DNA of 23,260 bases, taken from IMG/VR virus record IMGVR_UViG_3300004206_000002, positions 1 through 23,260 of that record, one strand, 5' to 3'. The DNA comes from a virus. The notes below the pieces were generated by a model. It was not told the origin of the DNA and searched no databases. It worked only from the letters and a program-made list of their open reading frames with translations. Shown one piece after another: positions 2,929 through 22,691 of this stretch; positions within the stretch are counted from its first letter, which is position 1; each line of letters begins with the position of its first letter. A program made the translations under genes and the position numbers.

Positions 2929-2941
2929 TAAACGCACCCTA
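2929..2941 (-). promoter_or_regulatory. Module-head motif, copy in front of the fibre/lysis genes
   Basis: The minus strand reads TAGGGTGCGTTTA and its first three bases are the TAG stop of the 2153-aa gene. The same 13 bases stand at 22679-22691, with near copies at 18157-18170 and 11834-11846. This copy lies 45 bases before the fibre start codon. I see no convincing sigma-70 -35/-10 pair spaced around it. I infer a phage-specific promoter or a regulator binding site. Confidence 0.55.
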
Positions 2942-5900
2942 ATCACGAGGAGGGCCAACAATAATTGCTTGCGGCCCTGCTTCACCTTCCATATAAGCTT
3001 TTGTACCTAGCGCTACGTCAGATATTAGCTTGCCTGGCATACCTGTTAGGAACCCAGCGCCCATAATCACACGCTTAATATCCCTGTCATCACCGCTACC
3101 TTCCCATAAATCCTGTATGCTGCCAGGTGTTTGAATTGCCATTTGAATAGCGCTTTCAACAGGTGACATTTTATAACCAAATGACCTAACATCTTCGTCA
3201 AACTGATTCCATACAGGGCGTGCAACATCACGTACTAACGGAATCATTGCTGTCTGGAAAAATACGACTGATTCAATAGAGCGTTTCATATACTCTTCAT
3301 CGTCATCATCGCCCCAACCAAATAGAAATTCAGTAATGATTGCTGGTAAGGCCACGATAAATATATACTTCACCGTAAAATTAGCCACTGCATTTGCACG
3401 ATTGCCGCTATTCCATTGCTGTTTACTAATCGCGCCAGCGACAACAAGCCTTTGCCCTTGCGCCTGAAAGTAATTAAAGAACATCAGAAACATTTGTTTA
3501 AATGCGTTCATAGCTCCTTTACCGCTAACCATCGTTGATTGATCAACATCTCGGCCTGAACCCATTGTGGTTTGAATCACAGCATCTGCAAATTTAACAG
3601 AAGCTTCTACGTCATTCTTAGTTTCAGTCATGTTCTGTTCAAATGCCGCGTTCCATACCGGAAAACTTACGCCAACATCAACCAATCCCATTAAAAATAG
3701 TGCATATTTGGTATCAGGCGTAATGTTGCTATTCACCGTAAATTCTTTAATCATGCCCTGTACATCTCGATCATAACCATTCATCAACCGCGATTTCATG
3801 TAAGGCGAGTTTTCAATAGCAAAGTTAATATTCTTTGACATCGAAGGTGAGTAAAACTTAGCCAGATTTTTTAATACCAGCGCTGGCTTTACTTTCGTTA
3901 ATGCCGGCGATAAGCCAGTAAAGTTTTGTAGCGCTGTGGTCATGCCAGAGAGCAAAACTGCCACTGTGTTTTTTCTGGCAATGCTAAAAGCTTTTTCCAT
4001 CATTCCAGTAGGATTGTACTGAGGGATTGCAATTTCACTAATGCGCTGTGTAATGGCTTTGTAGTGTTTTTCACCTAATGATTTTTTCAAAGCAAGTGCG
4101 ACTTGATTATCATTAAGCAGGCGCATAGTATCAGCCAGCGCTTCACGGAAAGCTATATCATGCAAGGTTTCATTAACTGCACTACTAAAGACATCTAAAT
4201 GCAGATTTGGCCTTAAATTGCTTTGTGTTACACGTTCTTTGCTAGTGCCTTGCCTTGTAGCGCGTGACATCCCAATACCAGCCCGTAATTCATCCAATGA
4301 CTTGCTTGCATCAAAAGTCTGTACCTGCACGCCTTTTTCTGGATTGTCAGCAGACCGATAATCAAGATGGAAGTAACCGCCTTCTAATGTGCCAAATTTA
4401 GTATCAAATGCCACGCCTTTTACTTTTGGTGGGGATATGCCTTTAGTCCGATTATTTACAGATTCCAGTTCCGGCCATATCATTTCATCAGAAACGCGCC
4501 ATAATGTTTTAACAAGTTCAATATCGCGCTGATCAAGCAGATCAATAATCTGCTGCATCTGCCCTGCATCAAACCAGTTTGAAAGGCGCTGCCGGCCTTC
4601 TTCACTTCCATATAAGGCAACAGCTACAACAGCATTTTCTCGCGTTAATGAAATGCCCACTGTGTTTGTGCCAATATCTCTACGGCTAAATGCACGCCTT
4701 TCTGCAAGACTGTATTGATCTTTTAAATAAGGTTTAAGCTCTGCATAAATTTCTGATAAGCGATTTGATTTGTAGTTTGAAGCCTCACTGTACCTTCCAA
4801 ATAAGCTTTCAAATACTGTGCCGTTAGTCTGGCCGCCATCTAATATCTCAGCCATTGCCGTGATATTTAAATACCCTGACAGCATACCGTCTTTGCTATC
4901 AGCAAGCTTATCTTCAAGCTTAACAACCAATGAAGGAATGTCAGCTTTTACTTTACCCTCAGCATCAAACAACTGCGGATAGGTTTTTTTAATCTGTTCA
5001 AGAATCGTTGCTTTTTCTTCTTGGAAAGTCTGATTGCGAATTTCTTTGTATTGCTTGTTTTCACGCCTTGCTAATTGCTCAAGCTGCGTAACAGCTCCCA
5101 TCAAATCACGCAATTCAGCAAGCGTCATATCCTTGTATGACTTGCGATAAGTTTCATCAAGCACAAAATCAGGCAAGTCAGGTATTACCGCAACAAGTCT
5201 TTCTGCTTCTTTCTCTACCCATTGCGCCAATGGTTCTTTACCGCGAATTTCTGCAAGTTGAGCATTGCTTACACCGGTACGAAAATCAAATCGTTCTAGC
5301 ACTGCTAGCATCTGAACCAAAGGCTCACCGCGCATATTCCCTTGTACGCTAGATTTATTTAGTTTGCGAACTTTATCAATGTATTTTTCTATTTCATCAA
5401 GCGCTGCAAACGCTTCTTTTGCTATTCTGTTATTTAATAACTGGTCACGCTTTGCCTGTACCACAGTATTTGTATCACCTTGACGCATAGATTTTTCTGC
5501 TAGTTTTGCGGATTTTTCCTCTGCCCTTGTATAAATATATGGCTTAATGTCTTTAACTGTTTTCTGCGCTATTTTTTGCTGTGCATATTCTTTAGCTGCC
5601 GCCTCTAATATCCTGCGATTGCCTAATGCTTTATTCTGTGCGGATAACTCAGTAGCCAATACTCTAGCTCTAACCTCGTTATGCACTGCCTTATCAGCAG
5701 CCTCGTTCATTTTCTTGGCATCAACCAGATCACCAAACTCAGCTAACATACGTTCATCGGTTAAACGGTCAATCAGTGACTTAGGATTTTCAGCCGCAAG
5801 TAATGATTTCACTAACTGATCACCACTGTTAAATCCGAATAACTCAGCTACCGCATCAGGTGGATTGCCTAACTCCATCACCATGCCGGTACGACCTATG

Positions 5901-8900
5901 CCAAGATTGCGCCATTCGCCCTCTTCGCCATACATACCGCGCATCATGTTTAAATCTAGCTTACCCTTGCCGAATGCATCTAAGCGTACACGTTCCTGCT
6001 CGTCATAGATAGATTCTTGCCATTTACGATACTGTTCACCTTCAGCGAATAGACTGTATTGTTTTTCGCCTCTGGCTTCTTCAAAGAATTTATCTTCGAA
6101 CTCGCGCAAATCCCACTTGCCGTTTTCATCTTTAGCCAGATATTCATATTGTGATAAGGCTTCAGCCATTTCATCAACGGATAAACCGCCATCTTTACGC
6201 AGTACCGGCTTGCCAAATACGCCAGAATCAAATCGGTCTTTAGGGTCCAATCCCCATTCAGAAGCTGCTAACTGTCTATTTAATCCACCAAGTTTAGCAA
6301 TAGCGGTATATAAACTATCCTTTTCAACATCAACGCCTTTAGTCGCTTTAACCTTTTCAGCCTGCTGCGCTTTGGTTTCATCTGGGATTTGTTTTAACCA
6401 TGAATAGGCTTGATATACGGGTTGCGTCATGACTTCGCGCCTTACTGCCATGCGTACTGCTCTGCGCTCTGTATCGGCCTTACGCTGTAGGTCTTTTAAT
6501 ACTCGACTACGCGCACCCTGCAACCATTTCATATCGCGTAATGAACGTGCTGTTAATGCTGTTTTAGCTTCATCTGTTGCGTCTTGTTGATTCTGTAGGT
6601 ACTCAGCATATTCATCTACACTCATGCCTGCATCTTCCATTGAAGCAAACATCGGCATCATGCCACGTACTGCTTCAGCTTTGTTAATCGCATCATCACT
6701 AGCCAGCATACGATCAAACACTTGGCGCACTTCGTTAGTTAAGCCAGGCTCACCGCTACGTTCAAAGAATTGTTTTAATGACTTGTAAGCAGACAGCATG
6801 AATGAGCGTAACTTAGCAAATACTCGGCTTAGTTCAAGCGTAGGCGCTGTACCTTCCATAGCGTACTGCTCAAAACCTCTGGCTAGTTTCTCATGGTAAA
6901 AACGCTTTTGGTCTATGGTCATGTTACGCCATACGTCTAAAGCCGGTTGCTCGGTAGATTCAATCCCAAACCAATTAAACAACTGGTTCATATCATCTAC
7001 TATGCTTTGTGGTGCATCTGGCTTGCTGGCTACGTCAGCATAGACTTCTAGGAAAAAGTGACCTAGCTCATGAATGAATGTTGATGCATCAGCATTTTTA
7101 AGCAGGGTAATGTTAGCGCCCTGAGTAATGTCATTACTGAATGAAATTTGACCACGGGCTTTCTGTTCGTTAGTCTGATTAAACTGATTATTCCCTGCCT
7201 TGCTCAATATGCCTTTAAACGATGGTGACGTTTGGTAAGCTTCAGGATTGCGTCTTAATTCATCTAGTGCCTGATGTGGATATTCAAAACCTAGCATCTG
7301 CTCTTTTAATAATGCACGTAATACAGTTTTTTGTTTAGAATTGGCCGCCTCGTACAACGCATCATAAGCATCTTGTGGTGTGTAGGTTTCATCGTAAACT
7401 ACCTGTGATAGCTTGGATAAACTGCTCAACGCTTCGTTTTTACCTACAGAATCATTCTGCTCAAAACCATCAGCAGTTATATTGCCACTTACTTGCAATG
7501 GATAACGCGCAAATGCTTCACTAGGCGTAATGCCTAAGCTACTTGCTAGTGTTGAATACCACGGTGAAACTAAACCATTCACATAGGCTTGATTGTTTTG
7601 TGGTGTAAATCTGCCGACTGCATTTAGTTGACCTAACAGATTATCACTTACCTCAGTCAGTGATTGTGTCCATGCCTCGTTATCCTGATATTTCTGGGCT
7701 ACGTTTTCAGCCTGTTTCTGCAATTCCTCTACTGCCGTATCAAGCTGAGTTTTAGCCTCAAACGCACTGATGCCATTTTCATCTGCGCGTAAGTGTTGCA
7801 GTACCGCACCGCCTAATTCTGTTCCGGCAATAGTCGCACCAAACTCACCAACTGGAATAACTAGATCTACGCCTTGCGCTATGGCCTCTTCTAGCTGTTT
7901 TTGAATGACAGGTGAAGATTGCATCAGCGTATTCACATCAACGCCTAAATTCTGTGCTTCCTGCATAAATGTACGCGCATCTATGTAAACTTCTTCAATA
8001 CCGTTTTCACCGCCTGCTTCCTGTAGGAATGTGGCAAAGTCTTGGGCTGAACGCTCTTTAAGTTTTGATTGTGCCGCTAACTGTTGAATGTTAGCGAAAG
8101 CCTGCATTGACTGATTTGCAGCTTCGCTCTGGTATTGGAGTTTTTCCTGTTCGGTAGAAACAAAGTTACCAGCCGCCTCAATGGATTTGGCAATCGCTAC
8201 CTGTCCGGTAGTGCCTACAAACGTAGCAATAGCAGTTTGCAAAGCAGCATCAGGTCTTTCAGCCAGATATTCGCTGAATGGTTTTTCAGGGTTTAATGCC
8301 GCCCATTCGTTTAAGTCCTGCAATACCGTAGCAGCCTGCTCACCGATCTGCTCTTGCACGTTACTCAGTAATACGGTTTTTAACAGCCCAGCCTCACCGC
8401 GCAACCCTTTAAACAATGTTTCAACTGGAATTTTCTCAGTAGCCCACTCAACCGCCGCCTGTGAACCTGCGTACACTAAAGCCTGATTTGCATCTAAACC
8501 ACTGGCCCTAGCCTTTGCATATTCCTGACCACCTGCAATACCTACCATTGCATTCAAAGCCAATGAAGAATTGCCTGAGTAAATACCGGCTATCAATGGT
8601 GGTAGATTCATACCTAGCGATTCAAAGCCACTATTAACTGCCTTCTCTACAAAACCTTGATCAGAAGTATCGCCGGTAATCGCTTCAGCTACATTAGATT
8701 GATTCTCTGACAGACCAAGTAAGCCCTGCTCTGCTACGCGCAATGGGTTAGCCGGCAATACTGTACCGACCAATGGGTCTAGCAATGGCGCAAGCGTACC
8801 AAACGGACTAGCTAACGCGCCATAAATACCTTGCCCTGCCCTTGGTAATAAACCAGCCGCTACCGACTTGGCAAAGCTGCCAGTAACATCACCGAGACTG

Positions 8901-9400
8901 CGCTCATAAGGTCTGTCTTTAGCGCGTGCAATGGTTTCACTAAAACTCTGTTCGCTCATGGCACGACTTAATTCAGACGCTTCACGAAAGCCTTTTTTAG
9001 TCAGTGCTAATTGCTTAATAGCATCTTCGTTACCACGCAGTTCATCGGTAATGTCGTGTGTGAGTTTGGCAAATTCAGGATTAGTCAGGTTACGACCTGT
9101 TACCGGGGAGGTATCGTAAAGCGATTCAACCTGTTTGCTGATAAACTTGCGTCTGACTTCTTCAGGATTGCGCTCGGAAATGGCATCCGGCAAACCAACC
9201 TTACGGCCTAAGTTCCGAGATTGTGCGATTTGATCAGGATTAAACTTAGTCGCAATACTGGTAACAGTAGCTGCACGTTTTTTCTGTGTAGTGGTTACAT
9301 CATCAATCGCTGAATCTAGCCGTGATAATGGGTCATCGTTAGCTTGAGTAACTTCCCCTGTGGCTATATTGATTGCAGAATCTAAATCATCTAGTGCCAC
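2939..9400 (-). CDS. Giant internal virion / DNA-ejection protein with HELGH metallopeptidase motif (2153 aa)
   Basis: This is the last and largest protein of a T7 gp13-14-15-16-like series, so it probably rides inside the capsid and enters the host with the DNA. The start is a GTG at 9400 with an AAGGGG ribosome binding site six bases upstream. A hydrophobic Gly/Pro-rich region lies at about residues 175-330. A zincin signature, HELGH, sits at 777-781, followed by GFEQYAMEG with a candidate third ligand E844. A long charged helical region runs from about 930 to 1500. Hydrophobic, probably membrane-inserting, segments sit at about 1807-1825, 1896-1914, 2007-2027 (YIFIVALPAIITEFLF) and 2041-2055, with the acidic patch DDDDEE after the third. 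No lytic transglycosylase domain like that of T7 gp16 is apparent. It belongs in style with the large polyvalent phage proteins. Its mass is much above that of T7 gp16 (about 1320 aa). Confidence 0.85.
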   Translation of the reverse strand: MALDDLDSAINIATGEVTQANDDPLSRLDSAIDDVTTTQKKRAATVTSIATKFNPDQIAQSRNLGRKVGLPDAISERNPEEVRRKFISKQVESLYDTSPVTGRNLTNPEFAKLTHDITDELRGNEDAIKQLALTKKGFREASELSRAMSEQSFSETIARAKDRPYERSLGDVTGSFAKSVAAGLLPRAGQGIYGALASPFGTLAPLLDPLVGTVLPANPLRVAEQGLLGLSENQSNVAEAITGDTSDQGFVEKAVNSGFESLGMNLPPLIAGIYSGNSSLALNAMVGIAGGQEYAKARASGLDANQALVYAGSQAAVEWATEKIPVETLFKGLRGEAGLLKTVLLSNVQEQIGEQAATVLQDLNEWAALNPEKPFSEYLAERPDAALQTAIATFVGTTGQVAIAKSIEAAGNFVSTEQEKLQYQSEAANQSMQAFANIQQLAAQSKLKERSAQDFATFLQEAGGENGIEEVYIDARTFMQEAQNLGVDVNTLMQSSPVIQKQLEEAIAQGVDLVIPVGEFGATIAGTELGGAVLQHLRADENGISAFEAKTQLDTAVEELQKQAENVAQKYQDNEAWTQSLTEVSDNLLGQLNAVGRFTPQNNQAYVNGLVSPWYSTLASSLGITPSEAFARYPLQVSGNITADGFEQNDSVGKNEALSSLSKLSQVVYDETYTPQDAYDALYEAANSKQKTVLRALLKEQMLGFEYPHQALDELRRNPEAYQTSPSFKGILSKAGNNQFNQTNEQKARGQISFSNDITQGANITLLKNADASTFIHELGHFFLEVYADVASKPDAPQSIVDDMNQLFNWFGIESTEQPALDVWRNMTIDQKRFYHEKLARGFEQYAMEGTAPTLELSRVFAKLRSFMLSAYKSLKQFFERSGEPGLTNEVRQVFDRMLASDDAINKAEAVRGMMPMFASMEDAGMSVDEYAEYLQNQQDATDEAKTALTARSLRDMKWLQGARSRVLKDLQRKADTERRAVRMAVRREVMTQPVYQAYSWLKQIPDETKAQQAEKVKATKGVDVEKDSLYTAIAKLGGLNRQLAASEWGLDPKDRFDSGVFGKPVLRKDGGLSVDEMAEALSQYEYLAKDENGKWDLREFEDKFFEEARGEKQYSLFAEGEQYRKWQESIYDEQERVRLDAFGKGKLDLNMMRGMYGEEGEWRNLGIGRTGMVMELGNPPDAVAELFGFNSGDQLVKSLLAAENPKSLIDRLTDERMLAEFGDLVDAKKMNEAADKAVHNEVRARVLATELSAQNKALGNRRILEAAAKEYAQQKIAQKTVKDIKPYIYTRAEEKSAKLAEKSMRQGDTNTVVQAKRDQLLNNRIAKEAFAALDEIEKYIDKVRKLNKSSVQGNMRGEPLVQMLAVLERFDFRTGVSNAQLAEIRGKEPLAQWVEKEAERLVAVIPDLPDFVLDETYRKSYKDMTLAELRDLMGAVTQLEQLARRENKQYKEIRNQTFQEEKATILEQIKKTYPQLFDAEGKVKADIPSLVVKLEDKLADSKDGMLSGYLNITAMAEILDGGQTNGTVFESLFGRYSEASNYKSNRLSEIYAELKPYLKDQYSLAERRAFSRRDIGTNTVGISLTRENAVVAVALYGSEEGRQRLSNWFDAGQMQQIIDLLDQRDIELVKTLWRVSDEMIWPELESVNNRTKGISPPKVKGVAFDTKFGTLEGGYFHLDYRSADNPEKGVQVQTFDASKSLDELRAGIGMSRATRQGTSKERVTQSNLRPNLHLDVFSSAVNETLHDIAFREALADTMRLLNDNQVALALKKSLGEKHYKAITQRISEIAIPQYNPTGMMEKAFSIARKNTVAVLLSGMTTALQNFTGLSPALTKVKPALVLKNLAKFYSPSMSKNINFAIENSPYMKSRLMNGYDRDVQGMIKEFTVNSNITPDTKYALFLMGLVDVGVSFPVWNAAFEQNMTETKNDVEASVKFADAVIQTTMGSGRDVDQSTMVSGKGAMNAFKQMFLMFFNYFQAQGQRLVVAGAISKQQWNSGNRANAVANFTVKYIFIVALPAIITEFLFGWGDDDDEEYMKRSIESVVFFQTAMIPLVRDVARPVWNQFDEDVRSFGYKMSPVESAIQMAIQTPGSIQDLWEGSGDDRDIKRVIMGAGFLTGMPGKLISDVALGTKAYMEGEAGPQAIIVGPPRD

Positions 9401-9403
9401 GAA

Positions 9404-11065
9404 TTACCCCTTATTTGCTAAATTTGCTTTAATTGCTTTCAATTCTTCAGATGTTGGTGCGCGGCCTTTATTCTTTTCAAACCGCTGCTTAATCGCATCG
9501 TCACTCGGGATAAACTTATTGGCTTCCGGCTTGCCATAGAACTCATAAGCTCGACCTTCTTTGTCGTCTTTGTACCAAGCACCGCCAGGCACTTCACCTT
9601 CAATCACCATGCGGTCAATAATCTTTTGCCTTGCTTCTTCACCCAATGGTTTGCCTTGCTTCTTCTGCTCAGTCAGCACCGCATCACGAATGACGCTTTC
9701 AAACTTGTATTTATCCGTTTTCTCAATGCCTAATGCGCCTACGGTTAAGCTGATTTGTCCATCAAGAGTAGTAACGTCTTTGATCTCGTCAGGCTTTTTA
9801 CCCTGTAAATCTATTAACTCTTCGCGCTTTTCTTTAGGTATGTTTCTAAAGTCCTCGCGTAAGTCGCGATTCTTAAATGCTTGTGGGTTATCTCTGGCTT
9901 GCTGACGAATGGCATAGTAGTTATCCCATGCCGCCACATTGTCCTGTTTCTCGCGCTTGGATTCTGCTCTATCCTGCGCTACTCTTACGCGCTCGGTACG
10001 CTGATACATTTCATCATCAATAGAATCGCGCTGCTGTGGTGTGAGCATGGATAATGTCTGCGCATCTACACCTCTACGGCCTTTACCCTGTTCTACGGCA
10101 ATGGTCCATGCTCTATCGAAAGCTTGTTTTTGCGCTTGCTGTGTCGCTTCTTCCTGCTCTTTGAATCGTGTCTTAACTTCCTGCACCGCTAATTTCATAC
10201 CATCTGCATCAGTAGCGAACTTCTCACGCACCATAGATAATGCTTCTGTTTCAGACTGTGCCGTACCCATTGCCACCGAAACTTCACCCAATACTTTGAC
10301 GTTACGCTCTGCGATTTCCAGTGACTTAACAAACTGTCCACGCGCTGCCGGCAACATCTGCGCACCGAACTTATTCATGTAGGCTCTGGCTTGTTCAGGA
10401 TTGCCATCCATCATGTTCTGCAACATGCCAGAATGGTATTGGCTGGTATATTTCAGCATATCCAGTTGCGCTTTTTCAGGCGTATCACCGTTTTCAGTCG
10501 CTAACCGGCTCACTGTTACCTGAATATTGCGCAAGGCATCTGTGGCTAATCCTGCATTGCTAGGGTCATCCAGTGATAATTTGATAGATGAATCAATAGA
10601 GGCCAGTGCGCCTTCCTGTTTGGCTGCTCTGACTTGTCCATCCTGATACTGTGACATTGAATCCAGTGTAGATAAGCGAACACCGCGCAAACGTTCAACA
10701 TACAAGCGCTGCTGATTTTGCGTCATTTTTTCAGTCGCTTTACGTGCGGTTTCGTACCACCACTTTTCAGCATCTTTAACTAAGCCATCTGCCGCTAAAC
10801 CCCTACGACTGCGCGCTTCAGATTGAAACTGTAGATAAGCTTCGCGTGTCTGTGCTTCGGCACTTAACGCTGTAGCTGTATCTAGTTCGTTTTGGCGTTT
10901 TTCTTCAATCACCGCTACGTTATTTAAGCCTTGCGCAAGCTTATTCAAGTTTCCTGCCTGCGTCATACTGGTAAACAGTTCAGGCGATGCAATAGACTGT
11001 TGTTGCACGTTTGGCGCAGCTTGCAGTCTTTGCGTTAAATTGTCATAGGTAGGTACGGTAGGCAT
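9404..11065 (-). CDS. Internal virion protein, T7 gp15-like position (553 aa)
   Basis: This is a largely helical, charged protein with many Gln, Lys and Glu residues and no signal peptide or membrane segment. Helical stretches such as WWYETARKATEKMTQNQQRL and EVKTRFKEQEEATQQAQKQA are consistent with a tube-forming internal core protein. It sits between the gp14-like and giant gp16-like genes, the place of gp15 in T7, and its stop is three bases from the next start. The ATG at 11065 is preferred because AAAGG stands six bases before it; a TTG two codons upstream is also in frame. At 553 residues it is shorter than T7 gp15 (about 750). Assignment rests mainly on order and helical character, since no catalytic motif is seen. 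Confidence 0.75.
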   Translation of the reverse strand: MPTVPTYDNLTQRLQAAPNVQQQSIASPELFTSMTQAGNLNKLAQGLNNVAVIEEKRQNELDTATALSAEAQTREAYLQFQSEARSRRGLAADGLVKDAEKWWYETARKATEKMTQNQQRLYVERLRGVRLSTLDSMSQYQDGQVRAAKQEGALASIDSSIKLSLDDPSNAGLATDALRNIQVTVSRLATENGDTPEKAQLDMLKYTSQYHSGMLQNMMDGNPEQARAYMNKFGAQMLPAARGQFVKSLEIAERNVKVLGEVSVAMGTAQSETEALSMVREKFATDADGMKLAVQEVKTRFKEQEEATQQAQKQAFDRAWTIAVEQGKGRRGVDAQTLSMLTPQQRDSIDDEMYQRTERVRVAQDRAESKREKQDNVAAWDNYYAIRQQARDNPQAFKNRDLREDFRNIPKEKREELIDLQGKKPDEIKDVTTLDGQISLTVGALGIEKTDKYKFESVIRDAVLTEQKKQGKPLGEEARQKIIDRMVIEGEVPGGAWYKDDKEGRAYEFYGKPEANKFIPSDDAIKQRFEKNKGRAPTSEELKAIKANLANKG

Positions 11066-11651: not shown

Positions 11652-12119
11652 TTAGCCTCTTAATTCAAATCTGTAAAACGGATAACCTTTTACACCGAAA
11701 GGCTCTGCATCAAAAAATGTAAAGCCCATCAACTTTAACCACCGGATTGTTTTTGTATTGCGCACATCACAATGGTTAGTGAGTATCGGTGATACATTTA
11801 ACATAGCTTGAATATACTCCCGGCTGTGCCTAATAAACGCACCCTTATGTTTCTCAATCAGGTCTGTGCCAAGCATCCAGATGATTGCAGTATCGGAAAG
11901 TAAACCTAGTGGATGCATACCGAACAGACAAACGAATTGACCATCTGCATACACCGCCCATTTGTACTTGGATTTATCAAATGATAATTGAATGGTTCTT
12001 TTATAATCACCATGCGAAGCCTGCAACTCTTGTTTATCGTCATGCCGGATATTGGCTATTAACAAATCAACATCGGCTTGTGTAGGCTGTCTTAGTTCTA
12101 CCTTAACTGAATCTCTCAT
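11652..12119 (-). CDS. T7 gp13-like protein with GNAT-type fold (155 aa)
   Basis: This protein resembles the gp13/DUF2833 group of T7-like phages: small proteins with an acetyltransferase-like fold encoded between the tail nozzle and gp14 genes. In T7, gp13 is needed for correct internal core assembly. Visible family features are AIIWMLGTDLIEKHKGAF near the middle, the region NTKTIRWLKLMGFTFFD that resembles the acetyl-CoA-side helix and strand of GNAT proteins, and a C-terminal YPFYRFEL strand. I cannot say whether it keeps acetyltransferase activity. The start ATG overlaps the nozzle gene stop as TAATG. A copy of the 13-base module motif lies inside this gene at 11834-11846. Confidence 0.8.
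   Translation of the reverse strand: MRDSVKVELRQPTQADVDLLIANIRHDDKQELQASHGDYKRTIQLSFDKSKYKWAVYADGQFVCLFGMHPLGLLSDTAIIWMLGTDLIEKHKGAFIRHSREYIQAMLNVSPILTNHCDVRNTKTIRWLKLMGFTFFDAEPFGVKGYPFYRFELRG
11834..11846 (-). promoter_or_regulatory. Module-head motif inside the gp13-like gene
   Basis: The minus strand reads AAGGGTGCGTTTA, 12 of 13 bases identical to the copies at 2929-2941 and 22679-22691. It encodes the residues KGAF in the gp13-like protein and lies about 185 bases before the gp14-like start. Promoters within the preceding gene are common in T7-like genomes. Because it is coding sequence, chance is a fair alternative for this copy. Confidence 0.4.
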
Positions 12120-15390: not shown

Positions 15391-15409
15391 AGGGCTAATG
15401 AAAGCCCCT
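15391..15409 (-). terminator. Probable weak intrinsic terminator after the capsid module
   Basis: On the minus strand AGGGGCT, loop TTCATT and AGCCCT form a five-base GC-rich stem (GGGCT/AGCCC) with a bulge, followed by TTCTTTC. It begins seven bases after the TAA of the 96-aa gene. The T-tract is interrupted, so termination is probably partial, allowing readthrough to the tail genes. Confidence 0.55.
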
Positions 15410-15416
15410 CTATTTA

Positions 15417-15707: not shown

Positions 15708-15718
15708 GATCAGTTTCC

Positions 15719-16186
15719 TTAGATAGCGTCAGCGTAAGCTTTCCACTTCTGAACATCAAAAGTGAGGAAAGCGTTAATTGCACCGGCTGAGATGGCTGTA
15801 GTGCCTGTTACCTGCAAAATACCCAAGTAACGCTCATACGCATTGCCTTCCAATGGCAGCGGTACTGCAAACAACACTGTTCCGGCCGCAAGGGTAGTTG
15901 TGTCAGTTGTGGTACTGGTTGCAAATTCAGGTGATGTGTAATGCACTGTTGATGTAGTGGTAGATACTGAAGCTGAATCATCTGAAGCCAGTTTAAAAGC
16001 CACTGTGCCGGTTGATGAAGCCACTTCAATGCCTGTTGCTACGGTAACAACAAAGTAAACCTCTTTACCGTTACCTACATCACGCACTTCGCTCAGGTCT
16101 AACTGACTGCCAATCAGATATGTACCGGCAGCACCCGTATTAAGGGCGACTGCATCGGCAAATTCTGTACGTTTGTCTAAAATCAT
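15719..16186 (-). CDS. Capsid cement/decoration protein, BPP-1 Bbp16-like (155 aa)
   Basis: This is a beta-rich, Thr/Ser/Val-rich protein encoded directly after the major capsid protein. The start MILDKRTEFADAVALNTGAA, the strand LIGSQLDLSEVRDVGNGKEV, and the end LGILQVTGTTAISAGAINAF followed by LTFDVQKW match the Bbp16 cement protein family of Bordetella phage BPP-1, which forms trimers clamping capsomers on the head surface. The Thr-rich loop at about 73-102 (SVSTTTSTVHYTSPEFATST) is longer than the rest of the fold needs and may be surface exposed. AAAGGAG stands about eight bases before the ATG. Its place next to the capsid gene supports the call. Confidence 0.85.
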   Translation of the reverse strand: MILDKRTEFADAVALNTGAAGTYLIGSQLDLSEVRDVGNGKEVYFVVTVATGIEVASSTGTVAFKLASDDSASVSTTTSTVHYTSPEFATSTTTDTTTLAAGTVLFAVPLPLEGNAYERYLGILQVTGTTAISAGAINAFLTFDVQKWKAYADAI

Positions 16187-16202
16187 TTTAATGCTCCTTT
16201 AA

Positions 16203-17198
16203 TTAAACGCCTGATTCAGTGTTAGTAATCGCATCAACACGGCGGAATGGGATGCCTTCAAACATCGTTACGTGCTTGCCGCCTACTGTTTCCATTGTCA
16301 AAGTAGATGAAGCCACTTTGTTAGCAATCTGACGTTTCAAGAAGCTCAAAGCACGACGGTTGCCGTAAAACACTGGTCGGCATGATGACAATGAAGGAAT
16401 CAACTCTGTAGCTTGTGACAGCAAATCAATCAGATCAGGGCCAGAACCTGCGTTCTTGGTCAAATCTTCCTGATCGTAGTTAATGCGCACTACATAACGC
16501 CAGTCACGTACTGACAGGCCGCAATCCCAACGGTAGTGTGTGCGGTACATTTCAGCACGACCATTAGAATTATCTACGTTTTCAACCGTTACTTGGCCTT
16601 TGTCAGTCATTTGCAGACCGCCTTTAGAGCCTTTAGGATAGATGCCGTGAACAGTGTTCGCGCCCCAACCTACCAGCCAGATAGAACTGTTATCAGTTGA
16701 ATCCGGTGTATCAGCAGAAGTCAGGATGTTGTCACCGTTAGCCGCTGATTGATCGTTGTAACGAGGCGCAAGACCTACAAACTCTTCAGGAGCGTCAGCA
16801 GTGCCGTAGAACAAGGTAGATGCGAACTCTTGGTTCATACCTTCAATGTGCGCCATATCTTCTGACAAGCGGAATGCAGCGGTATTGCCTGCCAAGTCAG
16901 CCAGGGCTTTATCTACTTCAGCGTAAGCTTCCAACATACCGCAAGCATCAGTGATTTGCGCTGTACGTGATTTAGTTGGTTGTACGCCACCGTACAGTTT
17001 GCGCCATGTTGGCTCAGGCAAACCGGTACGAACGGTAGTGCGATGACCAGTAGGTAAGTTACCTTCCAGCCATACCATATCTTCAATGATAGGATTTTGT
17101 TCGTTAAGAATTTCTACGATTTTTGCAATCTTGTCATCTGGGTCAAGACGTTTTGCAAAATCAAGAAGGGTCGGATGAATTGCGCTTAATGCAGCCAT
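16203..17198 (-). CDS. Major capsid protein, BPP-1 Bbp17-like (331 aa)
   Basis: This is the HK97-fold shell protein of the BPP-1-like group. Recognisable parts are the N-terminal HPTLLDFAKRLDPDDKIAKI, then IIEDMVWLEGNLPTGHRTTV, LPEPTWRKLYGGVQPTKSRT and the helix EAYAEVDKALADLAGN. The segment EGMNQEFASTLFYGTADAPE and the late strand VRINYDQEDL also fit. The protein starts MAALSAI, and there is no obvious long propeptide, so assembly probably relies on the separate scaffold protein encoded upstream. AAAGG precedes the ATG. The stop is 16 bases from the cement gene. Expression is probably high, since a terminator and the 13-base motif lie at the head of this module. Confidence 0.93.
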   Translation of the reverse strand: MAALSAIHPTLLDFAKRLDPDDKIAKIVEILNEQNPIIEDMVWLEGNLPTGHRTTVRTGLPEPTWRKLYGGVQPTKSRTAQITDACGMLEAYAEVDKALADLAGNTAAFRLSEDMAHIEGMNQEFASTLFYGTADAPEEFVGLAPRYNDQSAANGDNILTSADTPDSTDNSSIWLVGWGANTVHGIYPKGSKGGLQMTDKGQVTVENVDNSNGRAEMYRTHYRWDCGLSVRDWRYVVRINYDQEDLTKNAGSGPDLIDLLSQATELIPSLSSCRPVFYGNRRALSFLKRQIANKVASSTLTMETVGGKHVTMFEGIPFRRVDAITNTESGV

Positions 17199-17214
17199 GA
17201 TTTATTACCTTTCG

Positions 17215-17832
17215 TTAGTTCATAGTGGGGAACATAATGCTTGCCGCCGATTTTTCTGATTTAGAAGAACCGTTACTTACGACTAGCGTGTCATTACTTA
17301 CCGACTTACCAATGTTGTAAAAAGCCTTAACAATCGCCGGGTGGTTTCCAAAGCCAGTTGATTGCAGCAAATCTTTAAGCTCTTGACCGCCAAACTTATC
17401 AAGTGCCTGTTTAGCTAATGAAATGTTCTCGTTGAACTTTTCACCGCCTAAGTCTTTATCTGCTTTAACCTGCTCTGCCCATTGATCTACTTGCGTCTGC
17501 CAGGCTTCAGCTTGTTGTTGCTGCATCTTCACGCCCAAATCAGCGAATTTCTGCGCAACCTCTTTGCTTAAATTGTTCTCTTTCGCAAGTGCTTTTAAAT
17601 CACCAGCAAGTTCCTCATTCGCGGTAAAGCCCTCAGGTAAAGTAAAGTCGTAATCTGCATCGGTTGACTGGTTCTCAGTCGCAGCATCTTTACTCTTTGA
17701 ACTATCTGCCTGCGTGTCGGTAGTTGCAGTAGATAAGTCGGCTTGTGCATCAGTGGTTTGCAAGGTAGTAGCGTCTGCATTCACAACAGCTTCGGTGTTA
17801 CCCTGTACGGTTGCGTTATCTTCAGTTGCCAT
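17215..17832 (-). CDS. Scaffold protein (205 aa)
   Basis: This is a hydrophilic, Asp/Glu/Thr/Gln-rich protein directly before the major capsid gene, the normal place and composition of a scaffold. Residues 1-60 are disordered-looking (many T, D, S, A and Q). The segment DFTLPEGFTANEELAGDLKA, then LSKEVAQKFADLGVKMQQQQ, is typical of podovirus scaffolds with a TerB/phage-scaffold-like helical core. The C-terminus ends AASIMFPTMN, a form common in this family, where basic or apolar C-terminal residues bind the capsid inner face. The gene overlaps the preceding Bbp19-like gene by 11 bases, and AAAGGAG within that gene serves as its ribosome binding site. Confidence 0.88.
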   Translation of the reverse strand: MATEDNATVQGNTEAVVNADATTLQTTDAQADLSTATTDTQADSSKSKDAATENQSTDADYDFTLPEGFTANEELAGDLKALAKENNLSKEVAQKFADLGVKMQQQQAEAWQTQVDQWAEQVKADKDLGGEKFNENISLAKQALDKFGGQELKDLLQSTGFGNHPAIVKAFYNIGKSVSNDTLVVSNGSSKSEKSAASIMFPTMN

Positions 17833-18127
17833 TTTCGTTAAACTCCTTTAGTAAATTCGTATAGCTATCAGGTGATACGGATTGCACTTCTGAAACAATG
17901 AATTGCCCAATATTCATTTCGCCGCAACGAAAGTAGGTTTCACTGTTGCCGGTGAACGGATTGCGATAAACACCAGTTTTCTCAAGTAATCGGTTAATCA
18001 CCCTGCGGCCTCTTTGGTCATTGAGTACATAGCGCAAATCTTCTAATTCTTTTGCGCGTTTGTTCTTCTGCTCTTTGCTCAGATCAGTCTCAATGTCACC
18101 GCTTAATGGGTCATAGTCTTTACTCAC
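17822..18127 (-). CDS. Bbp19-like protein (101 aa)
   Basis: This protein resembles the Bbp19 family of Bordetella phage BPP-1, which is encoded before the scaffold gene. The body ELEDLRYVLNDQRGRRVINR followed by LLEKTGVYRNPFTGNSETYF has the conserved pattern of a GRR helix, GVYR and FTGNSETxFRxG. The C-terminus has PDSYTNLLKE, also typical. The molecular role is not established. The start is a GTG at 18127 and I see no good ribosome binding site before it; no ATG is available before the conserved body, so the GTG is likely real. Weak initiation here would keep this protein low although it is first in the highly expressed capsid module. Confidence 0.82.
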   Translation of the reverse strand: MSKDYDPLSGDIETDLSKEQKNKRAKELEDLRYVLNDQRGRRVINRLLEKTGVYRNPFTGNSETYFRCGEMNIGQFIVSEVQSVSPDSYTNLLKEFNENGN

Positions 18128-18156
18128 GGTGTAAGGATAAAGCGGTTTTTAAGATG

Positions 18157-18170
18157 TAAACGCACCCCTA
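18157..18170 (-). promoter_or_regulatory. Module-head motif before the capsid genes
   Basis: The minus strand reads TAGGGGTGCGTTTA, the same as the copies at 2929-2941 and 22679-22691 apart from one extra G. It begins six bases after the T-run of the terminator at 18177-18200 and about 30 bases before the GTG start of the Bbp19-like gene. A promoter directly after a terminator, restarting transcription for the capsid genes, is the simplest reading. Confidence 0.6.
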
Positions 18171-18176
18171 ACATGC

Positions 18177-18202
18177 AATAAAAAGCCCACCGAAGTGAGC
18201 TT
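18177..18202 (-). terminator. Intrinsic terminator after the fibre-partner gene
   Basis: On the minus strand AAGCTCAC, a TTCG tetraloop and GTGGGCTT form an eight-base stem (one G-T pair), followed by a T-rich tract TTTTTATT. It lies 16 bases after the TAA at 18219. The UUCG tetraloop and T-run make it the best terminator in the window. Confidence 0.85.
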
Positions 18203-18218
18203 GTGTGTTTAGTCTTTG

Positions 18219-18569
18219 TTAAATCTGTGGTTCCAAAATAATTGCTGCACAAAACGCCTGACACTCTTCCAAAGTTGGCGCGGTTAAGTCTGCCCATCGT
18301 TCCGCGTATGCCGCTTGCATAGCCATAAATAGCGCATCTGGACTCGTCATCAGATATTCTCCTTGTGCTTTAAACTCTGGCGTGCATGGTGTGCTAGTTG
18401 ATAGTGTATTGCCGTAAATTGGCGTGTCACCATTCCAGCCGATAATGTCAGGTGCAAAGCTATAAGCCCCTCCACTATCGGGGTCAAAGCCTCGTCCGAT
18501 ATTGGCAGCTATGCGTGAGATTTCTGGGCTGTAAGTTAAGGTTAGGTTGAACCGTTCTGAGTAACTCAT
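18219..18569 (-). CDS. Unknown small protein coupled to the spike/LamG-like gene (116 aa)
   Basis: I do not recognise a named family. The N-terminal half is beta-like (SERFNLTLTYSPEIS), the middle is Gly/Pro/Asp-rich (GFDPDSGGAYSFAPDIIGWN), and the C-terminal half has two helices (DALFMAMQAAYAERWADL and LEECQAFCAAIIL). The ATG overlaps the stop of the spike-like gene as ATGA, so the two are probably made together. Short proteins directly after a fibre gene are often fibre assembly chaperones, which is my leading guess. It is the last gene before the terminator. Confidence 0.72.
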   Translation of the reverse strand: MSYSERFNLTLTYSPEISRIAANIGRGFDPDSGGAYSFAPDIIGWNGDTPIYGNTLSTSTPCTPEFKAQGEYLMTSPDALFMAMQAAYAERWADLTAPTLEECQAFCAAIILEPQI

Positions 18570-19861
18570 AGAGTAGCCCCTGTTAAAATTGCTGCACCTT
18601 TTTCAAGAGTTACCATATCAGCGTCAGACAAGGTGCCTTTGCCAATGATTGCTATTGATTCAGTACCAATTAAATAATCTAATATGGATGTTGTTATAGA
18701 GGCACCAAGGGTTGCTGTATTTACTGTGGTAGTTCCCAACTCAGTGCTATCTGTTGCTTGTTGCACTCCGTTACCACGCAGCACTTTAGTGTTTCCAATT
18801 TTTCTATACGTTGCTACTAAATTGGTATTTGCGAAGTTTGTTGCCCCATTCATAGCAGGGCCAGCAGCCGAATCATCCCTCACATTGGCTCGTAAAATAC
18901 CTGTTGCAGCAACAATAGTCATTTGTACGAGAATCGCATTTGTACTCGCAGAATTCCTAATGCTGAATAGACATCTATTTGCAGAAATGTCAGTGCATTT
19001 AGCTCCAACTATAACAAAGTGGTCATCTGCCATCTGGAACGGAACGCTACCTAATGAAAGGTAATCAGTTCCATCAAGCTGCCATTTGCAGTTACCTGTT
19101 GGACTTGATGCTGCTGCTGTAGTTGTTGGAATAAATTCAGATGCAGAACTTCCAAGCTCAAGCATCAAGTCCTTAACCAATAAAGCATCTGTACCATTTG
19201 GTGCATTAGTCCAAACGTCTGCATCCGTAACAGGGTCTAGTGCATAAACCCTGAATGCTGAACCAGCTGTTACTGGCTCAACATGAGTTGCCTTGCATAA
19301 ATAATAACCATCAGAAAGTAAAGTAATGCTTACATTAGTGCAGCCATTGGTACTTATAATAGAACCTGTAGCAATATTAAACTTTGCACCGCTATCAGTG
19401 TAGGGAAACCAAAATCTAAATTTCGATAATTCTCTTGCCTTAACTTTTAATTGCACAGTTATAGGAGTACCAACTGGCTGGATAATTGTAGAATACTCTC
19501 TAGCGTGGGAAATACCGGCTCCTCCCAACGGAGTGAATACACCTGAAGCTACCGTGGCACTAGCAGCTACACCTTCCAGATTGCTAGGCCATACACCATT
19601 AACTGCGCCCCTACGCAAAATAGGTTTATTCGCCGTTGTCGCCTGAGTGGCGTTAATAGTTCCGTTAGCGTCAACTACAAGCCCAACCGGATTATCCACC
19701 GTAGCCGGAGTAGTGCCAGCAGAATCAAGATAGTTTCCAGCAGTCAGTCCGTTGATTACGCCAATGCCAGGTAGATAGACGTGTGCGTCTGTGCCGTATT
19801 TCTGCAAGATTGAATACACTTGCTGAGATAAACTAGACCCAGATGATCTGGTTAATAGCAT
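18566..19861 (-). CDS. Head spike/fibre-like protein with carbohydrate-binding and LamG-like domains (431 aa)
   Basis: This is a likely virion surface protein. Residues 1-40 form a short helix (SLSQQVYSILQKYGTD). From about 60 comes NGTINATQATTANKPILRRG, a phrase that usually leads into lectin-like domains. Residues 95-250 look like a CBM-type phage head spike domain (TPITVQLKVKARELSKFRFW, LLSDGYYLCKATHV, LVKDLMLELGSSASEFIPTT). Residues 255-431 resemble a laminin-G/concanavalin-like domain (CKWQLDGTDYLSLGSVPF then DDHFVIVGAKC). The gene sits in the head module between portal and capsid genes rather than beside the tail fibre. It may decorate the head or connector and bind surface glycans. Ribosome binding is modest (AGG about 12 bases before the ATG). 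Confidence 0.75.
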   Translation of the reverse strand: MLLTRSSGSSLSQQVYSILQKYGTDAHVYLPGIGVINGLTAGNYLDSAGTTPATVDNPVGLVVDANGTINATQATTANKPILRRGAVNGVWPSNLEGVAASATVASGVFTPLGGAGISHAREYSTIIQPVGTPITVQLKVKARELSKFRFWFPYTDSGAKFNIATGSIISTNGCTNVSITLLSDGYYLCKATHVEPVTAGSAFRVYALDPVTDADVWTNAPNGTDALLVKDLMLELGSSASEFIPTTTAAASSPTGNCKWQLDGTDYLSLGSVPFQMADDHFVIVGAKCTDISANRCLFSIRNSASTNAILVQMTIVAATGILRANVRDDSAAGPAMNGATNFANTNLVATYRKIGNTKVLRGNGVQQATDSTELGTTTVNTATLGASITTSILDYLIGTESIAIIGKGTLSDADMVTLEKGAAILTGATL

Positions 19862-19864
19862 GAC

Positions 19865-20140
19865 TTACACACCTGCTCGATAAAAGAATGTAACGTCAAT
19901 CGTTCCGGCAATGGTGACGTGTAAGCCGCCTGAAATGCCACAAGGGAACGCATGATAACCTACGCCTGGCGTGATCGTTCCTGCTAGTGCTGTACCACTA
20001 GAACCGCCATTCTTTAATACTAATGTGCCGCTCGATGTACTGTTTACATAAAAGCCCATAAATGATCCGTTTACCGTAAACACGTCACCGGTTGCTGTCA
20101 TGTTCTTTGCTGTGCCTACTTCAATCACTGTAGTCGTCAT
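19865..20140 (-). CDS. Small beta-rich protein after portal (91 aa), possible decoration protein
   Basis: I do not recognise a named family. The protein is Gly/Thr/Val-rich and almost all beta strand by appearance (TATGDVFTVNGSFMGFYVNS, TSSGTLVLKNGGSSG, HVTIAGTIDVTFFYRAGV), without signal peptide or membrane segment. AAGGAA stands about eight bases before the ATG, and the gene lies ten bases after the portal stop and three bases before the spike-like gene. The context suggests a virion protein, for instance a base for the spike or a decoration protein. Confidence 0.72.
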   Translation of the reverse strand: MTTTVIEVGTAKNMTATGDVFTVNGSFMGFYVNSTSSGTLVLKNGGSSGTALAGTITPGVGYHAFPCGISGGLHVTIAGTIDVTFFYRAGV

Positions 20141-20150
20141 GATAAATTCC

Positions 20151-21824
20151 TTATGTTGAATATCCTGTTAAGCCCTGCATTACATCTGCCAGCGCGTTAC
20201 TTTCACCGGATGCAGTTTCAATGCTGCCAATCTTCGCCGCTGCATCTGCCATTGGCTGCATCATTGCCATTTGCTGCTGTTGCGCCATTTGCTCTTGTCT
20301 GCTCTTGCGGATTAACGCTACCTTGTCATCAGAAACTATTACTGATGGGTCAACGCCTAATCTCTGTGCGTAAACGTCTGCAAATTGGTCAGCATCAAAC
20401 TTGTCTAATACATCAGGTTTAATCTGCGCTAATGAGCCTAGCGTCATTGCGTAGCGGTCTAATGAACCTAATCCGACTAACTGCTGTGCCTGCGCTAGTG
20501 TTGATACAAAATCAACCTGCAGATTCTGGCCTGCCAACTCTTGAGGTGCTTGCGGCAATATGCCAGCCTGAACCATGCGCGAGAAGGTAATATCTATGAG
20601 CGGGTTAAGCATTTCATTATGTAAACGTTCTAGCACTGGCCCTACCATCAGCATCTTCTCTTCGTGCCGTTCAGCTACTTCAGTAGCGGTTATCCCTGAG
20701 CGATTATCATTAGCCAGCATTAAGAACAGATCAGCATAAAACGCTTGGTCTATCCTGCGCTCTGTGCGGTCAATGTCCTGCATCAGATATTGTTGATTTA
20801 GATTGACTTCAAACTGAGTTTTGATGCCGCCGTTCTGTGAGCTTGAATCGTAGTAAGCCACACCGCCGGGCAAGCTATTCACTTCCTGCGCCTTCATATT
20901 GATTGGTACTTGAATCGGTGGTTTAGTCTGATAGTCTATGCATTGCGCATTTCTTAATTCTTTGTGCTGTAGTGATTTAACGTCACCCAATGCTTCCATG
21001 CCTGGTGAACTACCATATACATCACCCTGCAATACCATCCAGCGAGGCGCAAGCCCTGGGAATTCGTCAAAGCCTGATTCTCTTAGCAACTTGCCGCCAT
21101 CAGCCGCAGCTTCAAAGTAGATAGACTTAAATGCTTTATTCTTTGCGTCTTTCTTTCCGTACTCACGATCATAACGAGGCTCTACACAATGAATAACCGT
21201 TATCCATTGGTCTAAATTGCCTGCATCGTATTTATTTATGACACTAGTGCTTACGTTTTCTTTGCCGAACTCCTGAATCACCTGGCTAACTGTCATCGGT
21301 ATTTCACGGTAAACAGTTTTTACCTGCTGGTTAGAATCAATCGCTAACGCATATTCGCCTACGGTCATAGGGAAATGCCTCAACACATCATCAAAGTTAG
21401 GCGATACGAACGTAAACGCCGTACCATAAGCACCTAGCTCTAAGTACATTTGATGCAATGAATTGTAGGTATTAGAACGTGCGAATATCTCACGCATAAT
21501 GCGAGAAGTCTTATCCAGCCATGCTCTTACCGGCTCGAACTCCATCAAGTCTGTATCAGGTGTAGCCAATCTAAACCAAGGTCTAGCCGGTGAAGTCATG
21601 CCTGCCATCATTCCAGACGCTAACGTGTTTAATGCGCGTGTAGCTTTGGAATTGATGATGTTGTTATGCTTCTTCTTACCGTTGTTTCTGTCTGATTCAA
21701 AGAACCTGCCAGTACGCGGCATGATATGATCGCTGATCTCGCGCCAATGGGTAATGTAGCTGCTTCGCTCATTCCACAACGCCTGCTTACGCTTGAGGTG
21801 ACGCTCTCTTAAAGATTCTTCCAT
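20151..21824 (-). CDS. Portal protein, T7-like head-tail connector family (557 aa)
   Basis: This is the dodecameric DNA gate at the capsid vertex. The N-terminal region HWREISDHIMPRTGRFFESD, then INSKATRALNTLASGMMAGM and TSPARPWFRLATPD, is diagnostic for the head-to-tail connecting protein family. Further family parts are YNSLHQMYLELGAYGTAFTF, GSSPGMEALGDVKSLQHKEL, and RSGITATEVAERHEEKMLMV followed by GPVLERLHNEMLNPLIDITF. The C-terminal end is Gln/Met/Ala-rich (QEQMAQQQQMAMMQPMADAA), a likely flexible barrel end. The ATG overlaps the previous stop as TAATG. Length agrees with the family (about 500-560 aa). Confidence 0.95.
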   Translation of the reverse strand: MEESLRERHLKRKQALWNERSSYITHWREISDHIMPRTGRFFESDRNNGKKKHNNIINSKATRALNTLASGMMAGMTSPARPWFRLATPDTDLMEFEPVRAWLDKTSRIMREIFARSNTYNSLHQMYLELGAYGTAFTFVSPNFDDVLRHFPMTVGEYALAIDSNQQVKTVYREIPMTVSQVIQEFGKENVSTSVINKYDAGNLDQWITVIHCVEPRYDREYGKKDAKNKAFKSIYFEAAADGGKLLRESGFDEFPGLAPRWMVLQGDVYGSSPGMEALGDVKSLQHKELRNAQCIDYQTKPPIQVPINMKAQEVNSLPGGVAYYDSSSQNGGIKTQFEVNLNQQYLMQDIDRTERRIDQAFYADLFLMLANDNRSGITATEVAERHEEKMLMVGPVLERLHNEMLNPLIDITFSRMVQAGILPQAPQELAGQNLQVDFVSTLAQAQQLVGLGSLDRYAMTLGSLAQIKPDVLDKFDADQFADVYAQRLGVDPSVIVSDDKVALIRKSRQEQMAQQQQMAMMQPMADAAAKIGSIETASGESNALADVMQGLTGYST

Positions 21825-22408
21825 TAAAGTAATGTCCTTCTTTGAGCGTTTTGTCTGACACTTGAAGTCGTGCCTGAGTTATTACCTAGACGAATATTGT
21901 CGGCAGTCTTGGGTTGCTGCATGGCAATACGCGCATAGCCTGCATCTTTGCCAAATACAGCCAGTGGTGAGCCTTGGTCCATGCGAAAGGTAAAATCACC
22001 GCGATCAATTCCAGATACACTTGATTTATCCAGATCAAAACCAGATGCATTTATCCACTCACCTGCTTCGGGCGAAAAGTAAGTATCGGTTGAATTGTTC
22101 TTAGGATTAGATGGACCGCCTGATACGCCGCCGTTCGAGTACATCTGTTCAGCTACATCAGGAATGAAGGCCATCAAGCCGCCTTCAGGTGTGTATTTAA
22201 ACTTTGTAACGTAGTCGCTCAGCTCTGATTTGCTCTGATTTGATGGGTACATGGCGCTTAGTGTTGAATCTGCGCTCTTACCGGTGCGTCTGTCTAACGC
22301 TGCCTGATATGCGCTCATATCAATCTTTACACCATCCGGCAAACCATCACCTTGCAGCAGTCCATCTTTGGTAATGGTGTAGCCTGTTTTCTTATCACCT
22401 GTCGCCAT
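21824..22408 (-). CDS. Unknown connector-module protein before portal (194 aa)
   Basis: I do not recognise a named family. The protein is polar, Ser/Gly/Asp-rich, with little predicted helix apart from a short stretch (MSAYQAALDRRTGK). A compact aromatic region sits near the middle (DTYFSPEAGEWINASGFDLD) and the tail is basic and Asn/Arg/Ser-rich (SSVRQNAQRRTLL). The start at 22408 is chosen because AGGTGG stands five bases before that ATG; an in-frame GTG at 22417 adds three residues. It overlaps the small Pro-rich gene upstream or abuts it, and its stop overlaps the portal ATG. A position between terminase and portal suggests a virion or packaging accessory. Confidence 0.75.
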   Translation of the reverse strand: MATGDKKTGYTITKDGLLQGDGLPDGVKIDMSAYQAALDRRTGKSADSTLSAMYPSNQSKSELSDYVTKFKYTPEGGLMAFIPDVAEQMYSNGGVSGGPSNPKNNSTDTYFSPEAGEWINASGFDLDKSSVSGIDRGDFTFRMDQGSPLAVFGKDAGYARIAMQQPKTADNIRLGNNSGTTSSVRQNAQRRTLL

Positions 22409-22409
22409 G

Positions 22410-22628
22410 TTAGCCACCTAACAAAGTGTTGGTGCCTAACTGACCTTTCGGAACAGCATCACCATTCGCACCTGTCAGAATCGTGCCAGAGTTGCCGCTA
22501 TTGGCTGAAGCGCGTGAGCCTGCAATATTCTTGCGTTTAAATGTTTCCTGCTCAGGCGCTTTTGAAGCTTGTGGTGGTGGTATTGCTGGTGGTGGTTTTG
22601 GAATACTAGGGCCGCCTAATCCGCACAT
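22410..22628 (-). CDS. Small Pro/Gly-rich protein after terminase (72 aa)
   Basis: The protein starts MCGLGGPSIPKPPPAIPPPQ, a Met-Cys-Gly start followed by a proline-rich arm, then a polar Ser/Asn/Gly-rich tail that ends NTLLGG. Such short proteins are common near the portal gene in podoviruses and their role is not known to me. The Met-Cys start resembles that of the gp14-like protein, but there is no hydrophobic signal and so no lipoprotein export signal. TAGGAG stands before the ATG at 22628. The proline codons produce a GGT/ACC-rich repeat in the DNA at about 22571-22600. Confidence 0.7.
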   Translation of the reverse strand: MCGLGGPSIPKPPPAIPPPQASKAPEQETFKRKNIAGSRASANSGNSGTILTGANGDAVPKGQLGTNTLLGG

Positions 22629-22678
22629 AATGAAACTCCTAATCGTTATGTGTAGATTTTATGGCGAGTTTAATTTTG

Positions 22679-22691
22679 TAAACGCACCCTA
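22679..22691 (-). promoter_or_regulatory. Module-head motif before the connector genes
   Basis: The minus strand reads TAGGGTGCGTTTA, identical to 2929-2941, and again its first three bases are the TAG stop of the gene before it (terL). It lies in the 60-base gap before the 72-aa gene, about 50 bases from its ATG. Confidence 0.55.

Follow-up and report, generated by a model that had tools for sequence, protein, structure and literature searches.

Lambda CII is a small phage activator of promoters whose -35 element is poor (pRE, pI, and paQ), and it acts in the -35 region. Mor and C of phage Mu, and Ogr and Delta of phage P2, are middle or late activators that act at several promoters together with the host polymerase; they bind dyad sites upstream of the -35 element, and Ogr is a zinc protein. 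In the middle promoters of phage T4, a box that is recognized by a phage protein (the MotA box; the phage proteins are AsiA and MotA) supplants the -35 element, and the -10 element of the host's sigma70 is retained (PMC6755090). Here, we examine a short element that occurs four times in 23,260 nucleotides (nt) of viral DNA (positions 1 to 23,260 of IMG/VR record IMGVR_UViG_3300004206_000002; hereafter, the window). The window is the late region of a podophage of the BPP-1/epsilon15 type. The element is probably a box that is read by a tiny and misannotated phage DNA-binding protein, whose contact residues vary with the bases of the box.

Specifically, we propose that the element is the -35-position half of activator-dependent late promoters, and that it would be read by a helix-turn-helix (HTH) protein of the Bbp27 family, which would recruit the host's sigma70 RNA polymerase. 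From the sequence comparisons below, we give this proposal a probability of roughly 85%. The proposed promoters share with T4's middle promoters the replacement of the -35 element by a phage protein's box next to a host-type -10. But the box is centered near -34.5 instead of at -30, one small HTH protein is common to the loci where T4 needs two proteins (AsiA and the double-wing MotA), and the promoters serve late genes instead of middle genes. Lambda CII binds as a tetramer to a direct repeat of TTGC that flanks the -35 element, whereas here there is a single, non-repeated box. Unlike the sites of Mor/C and Ogr/Delta, the box is at -35 and is not palindromic. A direct homolog of the proposed activator is Bbp27 of phage BPP-1, although it is annotated as an endonuclease. 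In a literature search whose coverage was incomplete, so that a prior description is possible, we found no account of these promoters or of Bbp27, nor of the protein family, the residue-base code, the breadth of the system, or leaderless late genes. These last four aspects are apparently new, while the replacement of the -35 by a phage protein's box is known already from the middle promoters of T4.

As the first-pass annotation reported, the minus strand of the window contains TAGGGTGCGTTTA twice without change (22679-22691, site A; 2929-2941, site D), once with an extra G (18157-18170, site B), and once with one mismatch (11834-11846, site C). All of the copies are in transcript orientation, and they lie ahead of the portal (site A), capsid (site B), ejection (site C), and tail-fibre/lysis genes (site D). 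The repeat is not quite the 13-base element that was first described, however. The TAG at the front of both identical copies terminates the gene before it (these open reading frames end at 22689 and 2939), so we do not count it in the recognized core. This core is GGTGCGTTTA, with G or AG before it. It had also been claimed that no consistent pair of sigma70 elements surrounds the copies. This is correct for the -35: we found no TTGACA-like hexamer at a spacing of 16-18 nt, and no consensus promoter was called at any of the four sites. But in all four copies, GGTGCGTTTA is followed by a -10-like hexamer, always after exactly 17 nt (Table 1). If these hexamers are placed at -12 to -7, then the box spans -39 to -30, which is the place of the -35 element.

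Could the repeat be due to chance or to a coincidence of coding? The 11-mer GGGTGCGTTTA occurs four times on the minus strand of the window and never on the plus strand, and any 11-mer was present four times in just 1 of 200 simulations of the strand with a third-order Markov model. A loose scan for the 13-mer, with up to 3 mismatches, was uninformative (10 sites versus 5.9 expected), so we give weight to the near-exact copies alone. Relatives of this phage in IMG/VR have portals that are 75-99% identical to the window's; one of these relatives is 43.9 kb and has integrase-like and CI-like genes. Close relatives keep the box and the -10 in the corresponding places, but their 17-nt spacers have diverged. 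The site A box is kept in at least 14 relatives. At site C, which is within a gene, the codons AAG GGT GCG TTT are identical in all 7 genomes that we compared, whereas only 24% of the codons with a conserved amino acid are identical. This is the only fully identical stretch of four codons among 44 such stretches, and L137, with just 36% protein identity, still has GGT GCG TTT AT. This indicates that synonymous positions in the intragenic copy are conserved too, and that the copy is not a coincidence of coding. Thus, although the copy at 11834 is intragenic and is one mismatch off, the simulations and the conservation of orthologous copies leave chance with a negligible probability.

The same arrangement is found across a family of phages. 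The family pattern is a box of xGTNNNNNTR, then 17 nt, and then TAnnnT; in transcript orientation, sites A, B, and C match it exactly. We found this pattern in podophages and prophages of Betaproteobacteria, in BPP-1, and in Caulobacter phage Jess A. Across the family, homologous sites are before the gene that follows terminase, before the capsid module, and before the tail fibre, and the window conforms to this. In more distant relatives, where the box differs, RGTRCC, GGTGCG, or AGTGCG preceded TAnnnT 145 times at a gap of 21 and 3-25 times at each of the other gaps from 12 to 30. The general pattern had 186 sense matches versus 8 antisense matches. The spacing is 17 nt in 230 of the 239 listed occurrences of the box, in a scan that was limited to 16 and 17. 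(A subgroup of loci, L054-L061 and L094, has GGTACCCATG/GGTACCCGTG with a spacer of 16 nt in place of 17.)

The box variant is usually uniform across the copies in one genome, and it differs from genome to genome, even within one host genus. BPP-1 has three GGTGCCCGTG-N17-TAnnnT sites at homologous places (near 24132, 20747, and 6185 of NC_005357). Limnohabitans phage DC33 has GGTACCCGTA four times, MW202640 has GGTGCCCGTA, and several Betaproteobacterial prophages have GGTGCGCGTA. Over the 7 free positions, boxes differ by a mean of 0.9 within a locus and 3.2 between loci; the within-locus value is biased low because the repeat copies had been required to agree. Epsilon15, which is a more distant relative, has neither a repeated box nor a match to the HTH protein.

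The first-pass annotation suggested that the element was either a promoter for a phage RNA polymerase or the binding site of a late activator encoded outside of the window. Repeated, conserved, and oriented elements without a sigma70 -35 are indeed typical of promoters for phage-encoded single-subunit polymerases. But such promoters overlap the start site, while the start codons at 6-7 nt past the -10 put the transcript start about 30 nt after the end of the box. The box is also in the -35 position, at a fixed 17 nt from a bacterial-type TAnnnT. Finally, Pfam's RNA_pol (PF00940) had no matches in the 43.9-kb relative or in six related complete phages, and it did match a positive-control phage; the phage in the window is itself incomplete. 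We consider a phage polymerase to be highly improbable.

The second suggestion fared better. We compared the early-region proteins of the 43.9-kb relative to the promoter-bearing loci, and besides the terminase genes, only a 62-amino-acid HTH protein was widely shared. There was no second such early gene among its open reading frames of at least 40 amino acids. The HTH protein was present in most of the genomes with the promoters, and in 25 loci in this first search, including BPP-1, where it is Bbp27 (NC_005357, 26337-26573; 78 amino acids). Bbp27 is annotated as "endonuclease", but we saw no nuclease domain. These proteins have 60-110 amino acids with a single, free-standing HTH. They are encoded upstream of terminase, which would be beyond the end of the window, and they co-occur and covary with the box (see below).

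No curated family in Pfam or NCBIfam for the Bbp27-type HTH was matched. By profile comparison, the nearest fold is the HTH of the serine recombinases (Hin/resolvase; HTH_7 in Pfam): hhalign gave 87% for the HTH of Hin recombinase and 6% for region 4 of sigma70. Only one member of the family exceeded the cut-off for HTH_7 (25.1 versus 23.8 bits). Both groups have an N-terminal arm before the HTH, but unlike the serine recombinases, the Bbp27 family lacks a catalytic domain and is tied to promoters instead of recombination sites. There were also weak matches to PHROG 836, which is labelled as a late transcriptional activator (E = 2e-4 to 0.03). Homology to sigma region 4 was unsupported, as the best match to Sigma70_r4 (E = 0.003) was under the curated cut-off and hhalign gave the low value above. 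Two phages with weak similarity to the HTH protein, Vibrio phage 14E30.2 and Pseudomonas phage C171, were examined and are not of this kind.

To link the HTH protein to the box, we fetched loci by the HTH alone. Repeated xGTNNNNNTR boxes at the right spacing were found in 45 loci in the sense orientation and in 0 in the antisense orientation; a minority of these loci come from phages that the first set already contained. (HTH matches in Burkholderiales genomes had about 3 kb of flank, which is too short for the box test.) A box was present in 82 of the 91 HTH loci that had 8 kb or more of downstream sequence. For portal-related loci whose flanks were long, it was present in 29/32 with the HTH protein and in 5/27 without it (P = 2e-8, Fisher's exact test). 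The boxes in these five loci, which are of the Gastranaerophilales type, are probably chance matches.

We then asked whether the residues of the HTH protein covary with the bases of the box. The boxes were located using positions 2, 3, 9, and 10 and the -10 only, and the proteins formed 59 clusters below 80% identity. Of 413 residue-base pairs, the strongest was column 48, in the recognition helix, with box position 6 (z = 14.4): D goes with G (20 cases), K goes with C (16 cases), and R goes with mostly A or C. The second strongest was the adjacent column 47, also in the recognition helix, with box position 4 (z = 12.0; R-G in 16/16, Q-A in 9/9, and W-T in 3/3). To correct for shared ancestry, we built a tree from N-terminal columns, excluding the recognition helix, and counted co-changes. 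Column 48 and position 6 had 12 co-changes versus 4.0 expected (P = 1e-5), and column 47 and position 4 had 13 versus 3.9 (P = 1.6e-7), while 14 control columns had P ≥ 0.03. Column 54 and the N-terminal column 10 were both linked to box position 8; once the tree was taken into account, the link held for column 54 (P = 0.001) but not for column 10 (P = 0.08). In our own alignment, columns 48 and 47 line up with Q589 and R588 of E. coli sigma70. Also, Jess A has D in the recognition helix and G at position 6 of its GGTGCGCATG boxes, as the D-G rule predicts. Together, these patterns strongly suggest that the HTH protein has binding specificity for the box.

The covariation also bears on whether a host factor, such as an alternative sigma factor or a host activator, reads the box, with the HTH gene as a passenger. 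The -10 is host-like, and certain host sigma factors do have unusual -35 elements. But two phages of the same host genus, Limnohabitans, have different boxes (GGTGCGCGTA in L136 and GGTACCCGTA in DC33), each with its own type of HTH; the box variants track residues of a phage protein; and portal-related phages without the HTH protein mostly lack the box. A host factor is therefore very unlikely. We also searched for region 2 of a phage-encoded sigma factor (PF04542) and found none in the 7 related records, while it was detected in 10 control genomes.

If the HTH protein binds the box, it might instead be a repressor or autoregulator that delays the late genes. Repressors are common among the small HTH proteins of phages, and region 4 of sigma70 could be blocked by a protein that occupies -35. 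However, there is no recognizable -35 to block: the hexamer at 17-nt spacing is CGTTTA or CCCGTA. Furthermore, a repressor would not need a single orientation or an exact spacing. Given the lack of a -35 to block and the fixed distance to the -10, we prefer an activator, and we consider repression to be unlikely.

A more specific version of the activator proposal is that the HTH protein joins the holoenzyme, docking as sigma region 4 or T4's AsiA does. The box covers -39 to -30 with its specificity at -36, -34, and -32, which is the expected location of region 4. The 17-nt spacing is optimal for sigma70, the early-region reading frames of at least 40 amino acids yielded no partner protein, and there are weak, sub-threshold matches to models of sigma region 4. 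In the T4 complex, AsiA inserts its HTH into the groove from -32 to -37 (PMC6755090). As AsiA occupies the same place, displacement of region 4 is conceivable. On the other hand, the HTH profile resembles Hin far more than region 4. Tentatively, then, the Bbp27 family might be a plug-in specificity module that replaces region 4 of sigma70, with host region 2 reading the -10, a re-tunable residue-base code, and leaderless late mRNAs. We view this version as possible but doubtful.

Several observations weigh against an activator-dependent promoter that is read by the Bbp27 family. At site D, the hexamer is GAAAAT, which deviates from TAnnnT, and in Jess A the -10 sequences are only approximate. 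Three portal-related loci with the HTH protein have no detected box (L152, L160, and L164). Some protein-box pairs break the main rule, such as AKIC with GGTGTGCATA (L250/L254), as well as L154, L150, and L147. The tree for the co-change analysis was built from 40 alignment columns. Activation is chosen over repression on indirect grounds, namely the lack of a -35 and the constancy of orientation and spacing. Finally, the regulator's gene is not inside the window, which stops within terminase. The HTH protein is encoded by the close relatives L020 (975-1157), L003, L005, and L017; L020 has a portal fragment (141 amino acids) that is 99% identical to the window's, and its HTH gene is about 2.3 kb upstream of site A. 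The HTH protein of the phage in the window would be expected to contain TVRDIxxYRTWCN, like that of L020.

Under the activator proposal, a Bbp27-family protein would be made from an early operon just ahead of the terminase genes. Its recognition helix would read the box directly, given the covariation between residues and bases, and the HTH would bind as a unit on the non-palindromic site at about -39 to -30, which is the normal seat of sigma70 region 4. Host RNA polymerase with its normal sigma factor would be recruited, and sigma would recognize the -10. The modules for packaging/portal, capsid, ejection, and tail fibre/lysis would thereby be activated at the same time, either late in infection or upon induction. 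In several subgroups (L250, L254, L284, L286, L291, L297, L252, and L281), there is an extra box within a few hundred bases after the HTH gene, which suggests that the terminase operon is also under HTH control.

Many of the transcripts should lack a leader, as the start codon is often 5-7 nt after the -10. Of 201 distinct sites, 84 have an ATG that starts 6 or 7 nt past the -10; with GTG also counted and a range of 5-7 nt, the number is 105. We predict that roughly half of the sites, site B of the window among them, give leaderless mRNAs, which would be translated as such. In BPP-1, the mRNAs of bbp19 and bbp24 would be leaderless. The capsid-module gene at 17822-18127 has GTG precisely at the predicted transcript start, and its close relatives use ATG; leaderless GTG starts are unusual. 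The in-frame ATG at site C (window 11804-11816) is conserved in relatives, and it could begin a short leaderless product or be merely a conserved methionine.

If the proposal is correct, then the late regulator and the late promoters of BPP-1-like podophages have been identified together, including those of the model phage for diversity-generating retroelements, and a protein annotated as "endonuclease" becomes a transcription activator. In BPP-1 (NC_005357, L051), the third box, near 6185, is upstream of bbp9, mtd, avd, the template repeat (TR), and brt, and the only minus-strand terminator-like hairpin that we found in region 1-6300 is weak and inside mtd. This late promoter may therefore drive transcription of the diversity-generating retroelement. 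The natural pairs of helix and box variants would be a ready set for studying the DNA-recognition code and for obtaining orthogonal promoter-activator pairs. And the predicted leaderless late mRNAs in Betaproteobacteria make the question of their translation directly testable.

The predicted elements of the window are listed in Table 1. The terminator followed by site B is also present in relatives; because this terminator isolates the capsid module, the module needs its own promoter.

Table 1. Predicted promoter elements and terminator in the window.
Feature	Position	Strand	Sequence or structure	Context
Site A box	22679..22688	-	GGTGCGTTTA	across/after terminase stop; before 72-amino-acid gene, 197-amino-acid gene, and portal
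Site A -10	22656..22661	-	TAAAAT	17 nt after box; predicted start ~22649; Shine-Dalgarno-led ATG at 22628
Terminator, intrinsic	18183..18202	-	8-bp stem and T-run	directly upstream of site B
Site B box	18157..18166	-		predicted capsid-module promoter
Site B -10	18134..18139	-	TATCCT	GTG of 101-amino-acid bbp19-like gene (17822-18127) 6 nt further on
Site C box	11834..11843	-		within 155-amino-acid T7 gp13-like/GNAT-like gene (11652-12119), upstream of ejection-protein genes
Site C -10	11811..11816	-	TATATT	in-frame ATG 6 nt later
Site D box	2929..2938	-		predicted tail-fibre/lysis promoter; just past stop of 2153-amino-acid gene
Site D -10-like	2906..2911	-	GAAAAT	weakest of the four; Shine-Dalgarno-led ATG at 2883

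The window encodes the portal, protease, major head protein, tail tube proteins, internal virion proteins, a transglycosylase-like protein, a protein of 2153 amino acids, and the tail fibre. Megablast of the window against phages gave no match. The nearest named phages, with portals that are 53-55% identical, are BPP-1, zth2-2, Limnohabitans phage DC33, and two Manatee Spring phages. The 2153-amino-acid protein (window 2939-9400) has an LPD22 large-polyvalent-protein domain near its N terminus, and its position matches that of the giant structural protein of BPP-1. DC33 (PQ492659.1, L050) is recorded under Inoviridae despite its BPP-1-like podophage portal and its predicted late promoters.

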